Shown piece after piece: positions 32,272 through 41,644 of a DNA stretch of 64,000 nt (position 1 is the stretch's first letter; each line of letters opens with the position of its first letter). The DNA lies in the NCBI GenBank assembly GCA_000381625.1, contig KB906767.1, positions 4,269,357-4,333,356 of the forward strand. Reading direction: 5' to 3'. The position numbers were made by a program, and so were the translations under genes. This stretch comes from Bryobacterales bacterium KBS 96. GTDB lineage: Bacteria > Acidobacteriota > Terriglobia > Bryobacterales > Bryobacteraceae. Under the pieces are notes generated by a model. That model saw only the letters and a list, made by a program, of their open reading frames with translations, did not search any database and was not told where the DNA came from.

Positions 32272-33192
32272 CTAGACATGGTTAACATTCGCTTCGGTTT
32301 GCGGCCACCATTGCCGAAACCAGGTACGAAAATCGTCCATTTGACGTTTTCGTTGTTGCGAGACCGGAAGGCTGAACTGAGCGGATACGCCAAAACGGAG
32401 TTCCGCGATGAGTTTCAAGCCCCAGGGAGTGGGGAACACGTTTAATTGGGACAACAATTCGGAAAGTCTGTGAGCGAGAATCTCTTTCCATTGAGTGTCG
32501 CCGGCGCGACTCGCATTCCACAACGAGAGCGTAAGTTCCGGGAGAACGCCCGCTACGCCGGAAATGACGCAGTCGCAAAGTTTTCGGTCGAGCGCTTCGC
32601 TCAAGGCTGCATCGTTTCCGATAGCTCGCACGGCGTTCAAGGCGGGTTCTTTCGAAAGGGCTTCAAGAATGGCCAATTCGCCGCTGCTGTCTTTGATGCC
32701 CACGATGGAATCCGCGGAACGCAATACGCTCTCGACAAGCGGGAGCGTCAGTGCTCCGGTAAATGCCGGAAGATTGTAGAGTATGACGGGAATCGGCGAA
32801 TCCGCAGCGATACGCGTGAAGGACTCTTCGAGGTCGCTTTGCTCGTAGCAAAAGAAGTGAGGAGCTGGAATCAGCAGCGCGTCGGCGCCGGCATCGGCCG
32901 CTTCCCTGGCGAGCGAACGCGTTTCTGTCCAATGAACGGCGCCAATGCCGGAGAGAACGATGGCGGAATCGCCCGCGGCGCGACGGGCGTGCGCTGTCGC
33001 CTCACGCCGTTCGGATCGCGTGGCGGCTGCGTATTCGCCCGTCGCGCCGTTCACGCATACGCCGGCCAAACCGGCCTGCATGGCGTAAGCCGTATTCGCG
33101 TCAAAAGCGTCCCACGCGGGAAGGCCCGCGGCGTCTCTCGGCAACAGCAGCGCGGAAATGACGCCGTGGAGGCGCCGCCTTGGTTGTGACAT
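32272..33192 (-). CDS. DapA/NanA-type class I aldolase (dihydrodipicolinate synthase family)
   Basis: A 306-residue TIM barrel. Pyruvate-binding GATGE is at residues 49-53, the proton-relay tyrosine Y139 is in VILYNLPAFTG, and the Schiff-base lysine K167 is in GIKDSSGE. The family includes dihydrodipicolinate synthase, N-acetylneuraminate lyase and 2-keto-3-deoxygluconate-type aldolases. Lack of lysine-pathway neighbours and the sugar-related context favour a sugar-acid aldolase, but the reaction is not predictable. It is divergent from the HAD-DHS-PfkB operon, with a 196-base shared upstream region. Confidence 0.85.
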   Translation of the reverse strand: MSQPRRRLHGVISALLLPRDAAGLPAWDAFDANTAYAMQAGLAGVCVNGATGEYAAATRSERREATAHARRAAGDSAIVLSGIGAVHWTETRSLAREAADAGADALLIPAPHFFCYEQSDLEESFTRIAADSPIPVILYNLPAFTGALTLPLVESVLRSADSIVGIKDSSGELAILEALSKEPALNAVRAIGNDAALSEALDRKLCDCVISGVAGVLPELTLSLWNASRAGDTQWKEILAHRLSELLSQLNVFPTPWGLKLIAELRFGVSAQFSLPVSQQRKRQMDDFRTWFRQWWPQTEANVNHV

Positions 33193-33306: not shown

Positions 33307-33388
33307 CAATATTTCCGCAGGCCGCCGCTTTCTCGAGTGGCAACCACATGGCCGCGCGGAATCGCCCAGACGATGAGGAGGAGGTTTT

Positions 33389-34216
33389 TTGAGAGCGTAT
33401 GAAATTACAGCGCCGGTAGAGGTTTTGACCGGCGCATCGGCGGCACGAGCGAAAGTCGCTCTTTTTGATTTTGACGGGACGTTATCGCTCATTCGAGCAG
33501 GATGGATCGACGTCATGGTCCCGATGATGGTCGAAGCCCTGGCGAACCTGCATACCGGCGAATCGGAAGCGGAATTAACTGCGGTGGTAAGGGATTTCGT
33601 CGACAGGCTAACCGGGAAACAGACGGTTTATCAAATGATCGAGTTGAGCCGTCAAATCGCACTTCGCGGCGGCGCGCCCCACGATCCCATCGTGTATAAG
33701 AAGCGCTACCTCGATCTGCTCCATGCGCGTATTAGCAACCGCCTTGAGGAACTCCGCCAAAACCCGTCCTCGGTCGAAAAGTATATGGTCCCCGGTTCGC
33801 TCGAATTGCTCGAAGCTCTTCGCTTGCGGGGATTAACGCTCTATCTCGCTAGCGGCACGGACCAGGATTATATGCGCGCGGAAGCGGATCTGCTCGGCGT
33901 TACGCCCTTTTTCAACGGCGGCGTATTTGGCGCGCTGGACGACTATAAGAGCTTTTCGAAGAAGATGCTTATCGAAAGAATCATTGCGGGCGCCGAGTGT
34001 AGCGGCTCCGAAATTTTAGGATTTGGGGATGGCTACGTCGAAATTGAGAACGTGAAAGCGGTAGGCGGAGTCGCGGTCGGCGTGGCAAGCGACGAGTTGG
34101 AATGCCTGAAGGTCGACGTCTGGAAACGGGATCGCCTTGCGAGCGTCGGCGCCGACTACATCGTTCCGAATTATCTATCTCGCGCGGCTCTGTTTGAACG
34201 CCTATTCGCCTTATGA
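33389..34216 (+). CDS. HAD-family phosphatase
   Basis: A 275-residue HAD hydrolase. The nucleophile loop is LFDFDGTLSLIRAGW with D27 and D29, motif II is LYLASGTDQDY, and GFGDGYVEIENVKAVGG forms the acidic motif IV. A large helical cap lies between. AGGAGGAGG four bases before a TTG at 33389 gives a very strong start site. It is first in a three-gene overlapping operon (its stop overlaps the next ATG), suggesting it dephosphorylates an intermediate made with the HldE-like kinase two genes on. Confidence 0.85.
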   Translation: MRAYEITAPVEVLTGASAARAKVALFDFDGTLSLIRAGWIDVMVPMMVEALANLHTGESEAELTAVVRDFVDRLTGKQTVYQMIELSRQIALRGGAPHDPIVYKKRYLDLLHARISNRLEELRQNPSSVEKYMVPGSLELLEALRLRGLTLYLASGTDQDYMRAEADLLGVTPFFNGGVFGALDDYKSFSKKMLIERIIAGAECSGSEILGFGDGYVEIENVKAVGGVAVGVASDELECLKVDVWKRDRLASVGADYIVPNYLSRAALFERLFAL

Positions 34217-35181
34217 AATCCCGATATACTCCCTTTGATCGCAGCCGGCTGCTCATAAAGCCGCTAGGCGAGCGTATTCACGATCTTCACCTCGATCGAT
34301 GGCTTTCGCTGCAGGATGAAACGCCGCCTTACCGGCATCCGGATTTGGATACCGTTGCCGATCGCTTAGTGGCTGCCAAAACCAGGGGAGCGGCCCGCAT
34401 CTTGATGATGGGCGCCCACGTCCTCCGCGCCGGCGTAAATCGGCATATCATCGATCTCCTCGAACGAGGTCTCATTACTCACATCGCAATGAATGGCGCT
34501 GGAGCTATTCACGATTACGAGCTGGCCCGCATCGGTGAAACCACCGAAAGCGTCGCTCGGTATATCAGCACCGGCGAATTCGGCCTTTGGCGTGAAACCG
34601 CCGAACTCAACGACTGGGTTACCGAAGCGGCTGAGCTGGGCCTGGGATTCGGAGAAAACGTCGGTCGCCGCATCCTCGACAGCTCGTATCCCCACCGCGA
34701 CCTCAGCGTATTTGCCGCGGCGTATCGGCTCTCAGTGCCGGTAACTGTGCATGTGAGTCTCGGTTATGACATTGTGCACGAGCATCCTAATTGCGACGGC
34801 GCCGCTACCGGTAAAACCAGCTATTACGATTTCCTTGTATTTGCCAAGACCGTCGAGAATCTGGAAGGCGGAGTGATGCTCAGCTTCGGATCGGCGATCA
34901 TGGCCCCGGAGGTGTATTTGAAAGCGCTGTCGATGGCGCGGAATGTCGCGCATCAGGAAGGCCGCGTCATTCGCCATTTCACTACGTCAGTTTTCGATCT
35001 AGTTCCGATGACCGGTGATTTTCGCCAGGAACAGCCGAAAACGGAAGCGGCTTATTATTTCCGGCCACGAAAAACGATTCTCGTTCGAACGGTTGCTGAT
35101 GGAGGTGAGAGCTTTTATTTCCATGGCGATCATCGCGCCACATTTCCTGCCCTCTGGCGCGCGGTGCGGGAGCGCCTGTGA
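34213..35181 (+). CDS. Deoxyhypusine-synthase-like protein of unknown function
   Basis: A 322-residue protein whose centre resembles the NAD-binding Rossmann core of deoxyhypusine synthase: ILMMGAHVLRAGVNRHIIDL, ITHIAMNGAGAIHDYELARI, and a later PVTVHVSLGYDIVHEHP. Bacteria lack eIF5A, so hypusine synthesis is not expected; I cannot identify the catalytic lysine motif of true DHS. It overlaps the HAD gene by four bases (ATGA) and the kinase by four bases (GTGA), so it very likely acts in one pathway with a sugar kinase and a phosphatase. The reaction is unknown. Confidence 0.6.
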   Translation: MKSRYTPFDRSRLLIKPLGERIHDLHLDRWLSLQDETPPYRHPDLDTVADRLVAAKTRGAARILMMGAHVLRAGVNRHIIDLLERGLITHIAMNGAGAIHDYELARIGETTESVARYISTGEFGLWRETAELNDWVTEAAELGLGFGENVGRRILDSSYPHRDLSVFAAAYRLSVPVTVHVSLGYDIVHEHPNCDGAATGKTSYYDFLVFAKTVENLEGGVMLSFGSAIMAPEVYLKALSMARNVAHQEGRVIRHFTTSVFDLVPMTGDFRQEQPKTEAAYYFRPRKTILVRTVADGGESFYFHGDHRATFPALWRAVRERL

Positions 35182-36167
35182 ACATCTCCAAAATCCTGAA
35201 CTCTTTGCCGGGCCTTTCGGTTTTGGTGGCCGGCGATATCTGTCTCGATCGCTGGTGTTCCTACGATCCTTCTCTTTCCGAACCATCACGCGAAACGGGT
35301 ATTCCGAGGTTAGCGGTGGTATCCACGGAGACGACTCCCGGCGCCGCCGGCGTAGTTGCCTCGAACCTGGCCGCGCTGGGTGTGGGACGTGTCACCGTTC
35401 TTGGCGCTGTTGGTATGGATGGTCATGCCTTTGAGTTGATCGAGGCCTTGCGGCGTCGCGGCATCGATCCGTCTCATCTGGTGCGCGAACCACGAATCCC
35501 GACATTTACGTACACAAAACTCATTAACCTGAAGACGGGCGAAGAAGACCAGCCAAGAGTAGATTACGTTCTTGCCCGCCGGCCGCCTGCCGAGGCAGAC
35601 TCCGCCGTCGTGACGTCGTTCGAGCGGCTGGCTCCGAAGGCCGACGTGATTATCGTCTCCGATCAGGCCGAGACGGACGAGGGTGGAGTTGTCACGCAGG
35701 CCTTGCGCGACGCGATGACTCGCGTTGCCGTCGAGCATCCGGGAAAAACGATCTGGGTCGATTCGCGAAAGCGTGGAGAACACTATCGCCGCGTCCTGCT
35801 GAAACTGAACGAACAGGAAGCTGAAGAATGTTGCCAGCGGATTGGGCGCCCCGACTATCAATCTTTGCGCCGCCTCATCGAGCACGGCACGTTAATTGTG
35901 ACTCGCGGCGAAAAGGGCGCGCTCGTCTGTACCGAGGAGGGCATGCGGAACGTGCCGGCGCGCGCGGTTGCGAGCCCTGTTGATATTTGTGGAGCGGGTG
36001 ATGCCTTCAACGCGGGAGCGTCCGTCGCGTTCGCGCTTACCGGCGATCCCGAACTGGCGGTCCGCATGGGCAACACAGTCGCCTCGGTGACTATCATGAA
36101 GCGTGGCACTGGAACCGCATCCGCGAGCGAGGTTCTCGCGGCGATGGCGCAAACTGCAAGCGGGTAA
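35178..36167 (+). CDS. PfkB-family sugar kinase, HldE/RfaE kinase-domain-like
   Basis: A 329-residue ribokinase-fold protein. The N-terminus LSVLVAGDICLDRWCSYDPS and the sequence TPGAAGVVASNLAALGVGRV resemble the heptose-7-phosphate kinase half of HldE. PfkB signature 2 is DICGAGDAFNAG with the catalytic base D275. No cytidylyltransferase half is attached. It starts at GTG 35178 inside the stop of the DHS-like gene. In ADP-heptose synthesis an HldE kinase works with a HAD phosphatase, so a parallel sugar-activation or salvage pathway is a reasonable inference. Confidence 0.85.
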   Translation: MNISKILNSLPGLSVLVAGDICLDRWCSYDPSLSEPSRETGIPRLAVVSTETTPGAAGVVASNLAALGVGRVTVLGAVGMDGHAFELIEALRRRGIDPSHLVREPRIPTFTYTKLINLKTGEEDQPRVDYVLARRPPAEADSAVVTSFERLAPKADVIIVSDQAETDEGGVVTQALRDAMTRVAVEHPGKTIWVDSRKRGEHYRRVLLKLNEQEAEECCQRIGRPDYQSLRRLIEHGTLIVTRGEKGALVCTEEGMRNVPARAVASPVDICGAGDAFNAGASVAFALTGDPELAVRMGNTVASVTIMKRGTGTASASEVLAAMAQTASG

Positions 36168-40528: not shown

Positions 40529-41644
40529 TTACCCGGCTTCCATCGCCGCCTGCATCATCGCTCGTGCATAACCGACATTGAAGGCGAACCCGGCGTAGGA
40601 ACCGCCGCCGGGGTACATAGATTTGAAGGCCCGCCGCGTCGCGGGTGATTCGTCCTTATCGGCTTCAAGCCCTCGCTGATGTTCCGGGTAGATCAGCCTG
40701 GGATACTTCAGCTTCACCAGTTCGCGCATTACCCCGAACATATCCACCTGCCCCGCGTCGATGAACACCTCGGTATATTCTTCGTGCGGTTTCCGGACTC
40801 GTACATTCCGGTAGTGCACATGATTGATGCAGTCCTTCTTCATAAAATAGCGGCAGACCTCAACCGGATCTTCGCCCATTTCACGCGTGACTCCGCAATC
40901 GAACGTAATTCCGTTGTAGGGGCTGGGAACAATGTCCACGAGTTTCTTCCACCCCGCCAGCGATCCCATAATCTGGCCGGAACCACGGCTGAGCGGGACC
41001 GGAGGATCGTTCGGGTGAAGAGCCAGCCGCACATTCGATTCTTTCGCCACCGGCACAACCGCCTTCAGGAAATAAGTGGCGTTCTTCCACATTTCATCGA
41101 GACTGTGCGCGCCCTCATTCGGCAGCGCAGGCAGATCCTTCATGCGTTGGTAATCGAAAGCGGTGTATCCGGCGCCCCCGCGCCCGGTTTCCGCGTAGTA
41201 GCCCTCCATCGCGCGGTGTGCATAAAAGTTGTATTCGACAACGGGCAAGCCGACACGGCCGGCGGCGCGGATGGATTGTTGAACCTTTTCAATCTCTTCA
41301 TCGCGGCCCGGCTTTCCGTAGAGCGTGTTCGGAAACCCGCCGATCATCAGGTTCGCCAGAGTCAGGCCGCCGGCTTTGTATTTGTCGATCATGGTCCGAA
41401 GTTCCGCCTCTTGCCAGGGGATTCGCGGGCCGCCGCGAAGCACGTAATTCACTCCAAGCTGCTTCACTTCGCGCATGGCCGTTTCGTCCGCGGGACCAAT
41501 GCCGAGGCAAAGCTTCGGAGTGCCGGCGCCCTCGGTGAGCGGCCAGTTGTCGAGCGCCGCGGATGCGGTCTGAGGAAGTTGAGAGATCAAGGCAGTCGCC
41601 CCGAGCGTCTGCATCATGCCTCTACGGGAAAGCGGCAGCTTCAT
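40529..41644 (-). CDS. Tat-exported UxuA/xylose-isomerase-like TIM-barrel protein
   Basis: A 371-residue protein. The N-terminus LSRRGMMQTLGATALISQLP is a twin-arginine signal (SRRGMMQ), so export folded is likely. The barrel has mannonate-dehydratase-like motifs: EGAHSLDEMWKNATYFLKAV, VAKESNVRLALHPNDPPVPL and GITFDCGVTREMGEDPVEVC, then HVHYRNVR and FIDAGQVDMFGVMRELVKL. UxuA dehydrates D-mannonate to KDG. An exported version is unusual, so it may be a related epimerase or isomerase. Confidence 0.7.
   Translation of the reverse strand: MKLPLSRRGMMQTLGATALISQLPQTASAALDNWPLTEGAGTPKLCLGIGPADETAMREVKQLGVNYVLRGGPRIPWQEAELRTMIDKYKAGGLTLANLMIGGFPNTLYGKPGRDEEIEKVQQSIRAAGRVGLPVVEYNFYAHRAMEGYYAETGRGGAGYTAFDYQRMKDLPALPNEGAHSLDEMWKNATYFLKAVVPVAKESNVRLALHPNDPPVPLSRGSGQIMGSLAGWKKLVDIVPSPYNGITFDCGVTREMGEDPVEVCRYFMKKDCINHVHYRNVRVRKPHEEYTEVFIDAGQVDMFGVMRELVKLKYPRLIYPEHQRGLEADKDESPATRRAFKSMYPGGGSYAGFAFNVGYARAMMQAAMEAG

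Follow-up and report, generated by a model that had tools for sequence, protein, structure and literature searches.

Deoxyhypusine synthase (DHS) and the AgrE/ArgZ proteins use NAD on polyamines or amino acids, and ornithine cyclodeaminase uses NAD without net redox. In DHS, NAD is described as oxidising spermidine, with imine transfer and re-reduction, the imine being formed on Lys329 (PMC7226451, PMC9117371); the spermidine pocket is described as acidic (PMC9117371). In Geobacter sulfurreducens, transposon sequencing (Tn-seq) of growth on an electrode is reported with similar values, -3.1 for GSU2085 (hldE), -3.2 for GSU2086 and -3.7 for GSU2087 (gmhA), and GSU2086 is annotated there as a 'hypothetical cytoplasmic protein in sugar biosynthesis operon' (PMC5585712). 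The operon considered here lies in Bryobacterales bacterium KBS 96, in a stretch of 64,000 nucleotides (the window) spanning positions 4269357-4333356 of contig KB906767.1 (C1 below), within a 6.69 Mb genome that is 96.7% complete. It consists of three consecutive plus-strand open reading frames (ORFs) for a HAD hydrolase, a GSU2086-family protein with a DHS-like predicted fold, and a PfkB-family kinase, each pair overlapping by 4 bp. An earlier note on this DNA had read the same three overlapping genes. The operon is real and conserved, and its middle family already has a name, without a function. What might a DHS-like protein do between a phosphatase and a sugar kinase? The best explanation overall, which has about an even chance of being right, is that the triad forms the core of a heptose-style sugar-phosphate pathway with an NAD-using step on the DHS fold. 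A heptose-style sugar-phosphate pathway as such is quite likely; 'heptose-style' names the enzyme types, not the sugar.

The middle protein belongs to NCBIfam NF052581, the 'GSU2086 family', with 383.2 bits (1e-114; cut-off 250) over residues 7-316 of 322; the description of that model gives the family name without any enzymatic reaction. No Pfam family matches it above cut-off. There is no match to the DHS family PF01916 at E up to 1 or to dhys (TIGR00321) at E up to 0.1, and PF21570 (LOR/SDH, AgrE/ArgZ C-terminal domain) gives 15.1 of the 27 bits needed. A PDB sequence search with the protein alone returned no match at E up to 1. The likeness to DHS appears in the predicted fold. An AlphaFold2 model built from 59 sequences has a mean pLDDT of 94.0, and its top Foldseek matches are archaeal DHS, the LOR/SDH protein 3c2q and ArgZ. 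VIA-align, to whose listed folds the statements on closest fold are limited, places AgrE 6lrf at Z 19.7 (3.2 A, 220 residues, 17% identity) and DHS 6w3z at Z 18.7 (3.5 A, 245 residues); these scores are too near each other to rank. The AgrE/ArgZ C-terminal domain and 3c2q are of the NAD-dependent ornithine cyclodeaminase type. In a profile search, ArgZ/AgrE matched the region of about residues 38-106 with E of 4e-4 to 7e-4, and the two have a common stretch around IHDFE / VHDIE. Alignment by hhalign with the relatives' PF01916 proteins gave 92.9% probability, confined to residues 38-180, and the middle gene of one relative (G014) matches PF01916 at 2.9e-4, under the cut-off. By modelled fold, the middle protein groups with the NAD-dependent DHS and AgrE/ArgZ families; by family model it is no DHS. 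The term 'DHS-like' in the earlier note thus stands for the predicted fold, is weak in sequence and fails at the family model.

Which residues are conserved? Forty-five columns are invariant across 59 middle-protein sequences, including His, Asp, Glu, Arg and Lys. An NAD-motif-like sequence, NGAGAIHDYE, occupies residues 94-103, and the modelled fold suggests that the protein binds NAD. Lys237, Arg243 and Arg284 are invariant in 74/74 middle-family sequences and Arg292 in 73/74; Lys287 is invariant in 59/59 members of the window's subfamily and is Thr, Gln or Glu in 15/15 of the other branch. From the alignment, these invariant basic residues could hold a phosphate, unlike the acidic pocket of DHS.

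The flanking genes have clearer family ties. The kinase matches PF00294 (PfkB) at 2.7e-28 (99.6 bits; cut-off 25.8) and TIGR02198 (rfaE_dom_I), the model of the HldE kinase domain, at 139.8 bits, below the equivalog cut-off of 345; its best solved relative by sequence is HldA (PDB 4e84, 1.2e-18). GAGD (residues 272-275) is invariant in 27/27 aligned kinases, and at the site of SPEAP in the canonical HldA of the genome, 22/26 triad-type kinases have SxETG. No adenylyltransferase domain is among the Pfam or NCBIfam matches of this 329 aa protein. The HAD protein matches Pfam PF00702 at 4.4e-11, and D27-x-D-G-T31, S155-G-T157, K191 and G213-D-G215 are invariant in 40/40 aligned HAD sequences, the window's included. 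Its model (pLDDT 94.7) has Rv3400 as the nearest fold (Z 21.1, 2.9 A, 224 residues); further matches are YniC, alnumycin P phosphatase and the MtlD phosphatase domain, and beta-phosphoglucomutases rank lower. GmhB / HAD-IIIA (TIGR00213) is absent among its NCBIfam matches at E up to 0.1. A PDB search with the HAD protein alone gave no matches at E up to 0.01, and one with its profile gave 15 distinct sequences, all generic HAD phosphatases. These matches confirm the HAD gene and the HldE-like sugar kinase of the earlier note, the kinase lying below the TIGR02198 cut-off. The kinase itself belongs to a broader set of heptose-type genes, as the middle family is also found beside GmhA-like isomerases and adenylyltransferase-kinase fusions.

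How far does the triad extend? Eighty named loci were picked by middle-protein similarity alone (the best 80 of 580) and their neighbours were labelled by phmmer against representatives, with counts that are lower bounds for diverged partners. A HAD gene is adjacent in 43, a kinase in 45, both in 38 and an adenylyltransferase-kinase fusion in 16; this gives 50 loci of type 1, 16 of type 2 (the fusion) and 14 of neither type, some of the last on short contigs. The labelled stretches are separated by median gaps of 15 and 17 bases. In the 60/80 loci flanked by 1.5 kb or more on both sides, HAD and kinase occur together in 28, a kinase in 33, a fusion in 15 (all of which carry the adenylyltransferase) and a HAD without kinase in three, and a kinase or fusion is present in 48/60. 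The triad recurs in at least six phyla, and the search of other genomes that the earlier note had proposed thus found it well beyond close relatives. On the tree, which covers 58/80 loci, type 1 is present in Acidobacteriota, Planctomycetota, Chloroflexota, Armatimonadota, Bipolaricaulota and Bacillota, and type 2 in deltaproteobacteria (labelled Myxococcota and Thermodesulfobacteriota), Nitrospirota, Magnetococcales and Lachnospiraceae; type 2 also includes single records of Phycisphaerales and Parcubacteria. On the tree, the fusion type requires a minimum of three changes, not necessarily three gains, and its three Lachnospiraceae members nest within type-1 Clostridia. It is as if the partner had apparently been swapped more than once while remaining a heptose-type kinase. 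The two fusions scanned (L105, L118) have the adenylyltransferase followed by the kinase, the reverse of the HldE model, and no adenylyltransferase domain was detected in the 50 type-1 loci, with flanks of up to 8 kb. Tandem adenylyltransferase-like domains, a free one before the fused one, are seen in type-2 loci L095, L111, L115, L117, L120, L121 and L126.

Closer to home, a middle-protein match of any level is present in 58/61 genomes (own and relatives), and one of at least 65% identity in 42/61, the window genome counted. Of 20 short loci from these genomes, the window's among them, 18 have the three genes side by side; the L018 and L021 pieces show no HAD. Across the phylum, 93/297 genomes have a GSU2086-family match over the cut-off, and among the matches listed, the named sequences most similar to the middle protein are titled Acidobacteria, several of them Bryobacterales or Solibacter. 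There is also a second GSU2086 branch, in 30 phylum loci (L022-L051); the 15 members of it that were aligned show 36-43% identity. The two branches separate with support 100/100 on a tree of 59 subfamily sequences (the window's and those of 58 of the 80 named loci) and 15 paralogues. Neither the triad's HAD nor its kinase was detected within ~1.5 kb of second-branch genes (0/30 loci at E 1e-4), and a GmhA-like gene lies directly upstream in 7/30, one of them confirmed by model. Seven of the 30 second-branch genes directly follow a QueA-like gene (label by eye).

The isomerase and further sugar genes belong to the wider company. Within 5 kb, 30/80 loci have a GmhA-like SIS gene (type 1, 17/50; type 2, 13/16); within 3.5 kb, a ROK gene is present in 12/50 type-1 and 0/16 type-2 loci. 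Thirteen longer stretches were taken from relatives that have a close match: 12 carry the complete triad (L187 shows no HAD), 9 a SIS gene and 7 a ROK gene, and in four (L176, L178, L180, L181) the five genes run together in the order HAD-middle-kinase-ROK-SIS. In the window genome, an HldA-like kinase, a ROK kinase and a GmhA-like isomerase lie in a row at ~C1:6.40 Mb (L169:7559-10064, minus strand), and this set represents the remaining genes of the relatives' operon. The kinase there, which scores 323 bits to that of the window, belongs to the same subfamily. The isomerase scores 125.9 bits, under the gmhA cut-off of 209.45, and is called GmhA-like, not GmhA. Next to the set is a gene whose product is similar to the TonB-receptor-like protein of the window. 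At ~C1:4.84 Mb lies a canonical HldA (361 bits, above the cut-off) with a GmhB-like neighbour. Further genes of type-2 loci, in varying combinations, are radical SAM, split transketolase, GmhB, aminotransferase-like, epimerase-like and other genes; on L130 a model check was made of radical SAM, GmhB and the first half of the transketolase, and the other type-2 neighbour names were given by eye. Upstream of the triad in L078, L091, L094 and L099 are a Gfo/Idh oxidoreductase and a TIM-barrel AP_endonuc_2-type protein (both also in L102 and L124), together with an SDR; the L078 Gfo/Idh protein resembles levoglucosan dehydrogenase, at 437 bits of 650.

Gene order, co-conservation across phyla, family membership, invariant residues and a confident fold prediction form the base on which a mechanism can be proposed. 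In a scheme modelled on ADP-heptose synthesis, a ketose phosphate and an aldose phosphate would be interconverted by a GmhA-like isomerase, whose gene lies elsewhere in the window genome and within the operon in many relatives. The HldA-like kinase would phosphorylate C1, and the HAD enzyme would strip the original terminal phosphate; the phosphate substrate, the direction and the C1 site are all inferred. The GSU2086-family protein would bind NAD in its DHS-like fold and carry out an extra step on the sugar phosphate. That step would most likely be redox-neutral, a carbon being oxidised, rearranged and re-reduced by the same NAD, for example in an epimerisation. A redox-neutral rearrangement is chosen because DHS and ornithine cyclodeaminase use NAD in this manner. 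For the middle protein, NAD-dependent sugar-phosphate chemistry of some kind is an evenly balanced proposition, and epimerisation in particular is rather unlikely.

A number of findings weigh against this scheme. The triad is located among ABC-import-type genes in five Clostridia-type loci (L102, L104, L112, L123, L124), a company that suggests catabolism over ADP-heptose-like synthesis. Nine of the 60 well-flanked loci have no HAD, kinase or fusion. Both the kinase and the GmhA-like isomerase score below the heptose equivalog cut-offs, and the sugar therefore need not be a heptose. The Foldseek query TM-scores of the top matches are modest, ~0.46-0.52, and the suggested phosphate-holding role of the basic residues was read from alignment columns. 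The comparison with the DHS active site is also fragile: the best ungapped register puts Thr293 (58/59; Pro in 14/15 paralogues) opposite the DHS lysine, yet 44% of 2000 column shuffles reach that score, so that the register over the last 38 residues is not significant, and hhalign's alignment differs. Geobacter GSU2086 is likened to the middle protein by family name and gene company.

Could the middle protein instead cut the sugar? In such a catabolic route the kinase and HAD enzyme would shift the phosphate along the sugar, and the DHS-fold protein, a retro-aldolase-like lyase with an invariant lysine as Schiff base in the manner of DHS Lys329, would cleave the chain. This is a real rival, because the ABC-import-type genes around the triad in five Clostridia-type loci are a sign of catabolism; in Clostridia-type loci the triad also sits with Gfo/Idh, TIM-barrel and ROK genes, and no other aldolase was noticed in the L102 and L124 gene lists, which were read by eye without a family search. 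Lys237 and Lys287 would be candidates for the lysine, an imine on Lys329 being described for DHS (PMC7226451, PMC9117371). The lysine opposite Lys329 itself appears absent, with the register uncertain, L104 has its own class II aldolase-like gene (label by eye), and cleavage would be harder to make sense of in the adenylyltransferase-bearing clusters, apparently for nucleotide-sugar synthesis, in which the family is also present. All told, a lyase is improbable. An ordinary ADP-heptose operon, in which the middle protein would be a diverged version of a known enzyme, for instance the isomerase or an epimerase, is improbable to a similar degree. The gene set does parallel GmhA, HldA and phosphatase, but the GmhA-like gene accompanies the middle gene and is not replaced by it; a simple ADP-heptose operon is also less likely because the canonical HldA and GmhB-like genes are already present elsewhere and type-1 triads lack a detected adenylyltransferase.

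Two further explanations are more improbable still. One is that a polyamine or amino-acid enzyme, of the DHS, homospermidine synthase or ornithine cyclodeaminase type, is located among sugar genes by chance. The nearest folds are indeed the AgrE C-terminal domain and DHS, and the weak ArgZ/AgrE profile matches and the PF01916 match of the G014 gene fit as well. Neither a DHS nor an LOR/SDH family model recognises the middle protein, however, the sugar kinase, phosphatase and isomerase neighbours recur over several phyla, and the genome has its own PF01916 protein as well as a longer protein at C1:1059505, weakly matched by the GSU2086 model and taken by the authors for its LOR/SDH relative. 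In the other, the middle protein would assist the heptose-type kinase in a non-catalytic or regulatory role, forming a complex with it or sensing a sugar phosphate. The kinase, separate or fused, is the commonest partner; the 45 invariant columns and the lowest dN/dS of the three genes nevertheless look like an enzyme active site.

Hypusine formation by the middle protein was considered and rejected, as PF01916 is not matched and no eIF5A was detected in the window genome. The search for eIF5A (PF01287) gave no matches in this one genome, in accord with the earlier note's description of a bacterium without eIF5A; in 14 control genomes it found three cases, all archaea, and missed a fourth archaeal control, Haloferax volcanii, and can therefore miss a case. 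Neither a true eIF5A partner nor a restriction of the triad to close relatives was found, and the preference of the earlier note for a sugar pathway over hypusine is supported by the lack of a detected eIF5A and by a sugar-gene triad conserved far past close relatives. The sugar-polyamine link that it also entertained did not hold up: no polyamine gene was seen in the 40 largest neighbour clusters, judged by eye with no dedicated polyamine-family search. The genome's separate DHS-family gene (G000:C1:673751-674665; L001:1501-2415; PF01916, 139.7 bits) encodes a protein whose best NCBIfam model is 'homospermidine biosynthesis protein', at 106 bits of 450. It retains the W and K of the DHS SWGK stretch, as seen here in two archaeal DHS alignments, the K of which is taken to be human Lys329. 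In the middle protein, the alignments tentatively suggest no clear counterpart of this lysine or of the acidic spermidine residues of DHS.

The features of the operon and its surroundings are collected in Table 1. Compared with a same-genus genome (G001, locus L186), dN/dS is 0.078 for HAD, 0.040 for the middle gene and 0.092 for the kinase, and because of these low values all three ORFs are considered real genes under strong purifying selection. Scans for promoters (three sites, none on the plus strand; shuffle mean 1.4) and terminators (three sites; shuffle mean 3.5) are uninformative for the operon. The divergent DHDPS-family neighbour is retained in L186, and no close match to it was found near the triad in the other relatives' stretches examined.

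Table 1. Positions of the operon's features and of neighbouring genes in the window
Feature	Position	Strand	Basis or remark
Putative ribosome-binding-like purine-rich stretch GAGGAGGAGG	33375..33384	+	Ahead of the TTG start; read from sequence
HAD hydrolase gene, 275 aa, TTG start	33389..34216	+	PF00702, model pLDDT 94.7
ATGA overlap, HAD stop / middle-gene start	34213..34216	+	Sequence
GSU2086-family gene (DHS-like predicted fold), 322 aa, ATG start	34213..35181	+	NF052581, model pLDDT 94.0
GTGA overlap, middle-gene stop / kinase start	35178..35181	+	Sequence
PfkB-family kinase gene, 329 aa, GTG start	35178..36167	+	PF00294, TIGR02198 below cut-off
DHDPS-family gene	32272..33192	-	Divergent, adjoining the operon
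ORF, 441 aa	30757..32082	+	No Pfam match at 1e-6
ORF, 824 aa	38028..40502	-	No Pfam match at 1e-6
UxuA (mannonate dehydratase)-type / TIM-barrel protein	40529..41644	-	

What would the proposed heptose-style pathway with an NAD-using step mean more widely? It is possible, though on the doubtful side, that the GSU2086 family constitutes a new class of NAD-dependent, redox-neutral sugar-phosphate enzyme on the DHS fold, acting in an unrecognised pathway. In it the family would work with a kinase of heptose type, a phosphatase and a GmhA-like isomerase, in many cases joined by a ROK kinase. The pathway would run without an adenylyltransferase in Acidobacteriota, Planctomycetota, Chloroflexota, Armatimonadota and Clostridia, and a nucleotide-activating version might exist in deltaproteobacterial, Magnetococcales, Nitrospirota and Lachnospiraceae lineages. 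If this is true, NAD chemistry of the DHS/AgrE type extends from polyamines and amino acids to sugar phosphates, over several phyla, and a specific extra step is predicted in a sugar pathway of many environmental bacteria. It would also give a testable function to a family with a reported transposon phenotype in Geobacter electrode growth.

Literature searches for deoxyhypusine synthase and heptose together gave no match, and this operon was not found among the matches listed; several known systems resemble it in part. The AgrE/ArgZ C-terminal domain and 3c2q give the top structural match to the middle protein, which differs in having no arginine dihydrolase domain, in scoring under the PF21570 cut-off and in its sugar-metabolism neighbours. 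DHS and homospermidine synthase (PF01916) are alike in fold and align with its first half by profiles, but the family model does not recognise it. With HldA/HldE, the window kinase has the PfkB family and GAGD in common; it differs in its TIGR02198 score (139.8 of 345 bits) and in having no adenylyltransferase, and most triad-type kinases have SxETG in place of SPEAP. The non-carboxylating pentose bisphosphate pathway of halophilic archaea (PMC9700705) is similar in a second phosphorylation and a later bisphosphate phosphatase; it differs in using pentoses from nucleosides and another isomerase, and its abstract names no DHS-fold protein. The Geobacter locus is another close system. The portion of PMC5585712 drawn on here reports neither a HAD-middle-kinase triad nor any biochemistry, and its annotation includes an adenylyltransferase part. 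GSU2086, however, gives its name to NF052581, the family of the middle protein, and likewise stands beside a heptose kinase and a phosphoheptose isomerase, and the reported order hldE-GSU2086-gmhA is the fusion-middle-SIS order of type-2 loci such as L101, L105 and L118.

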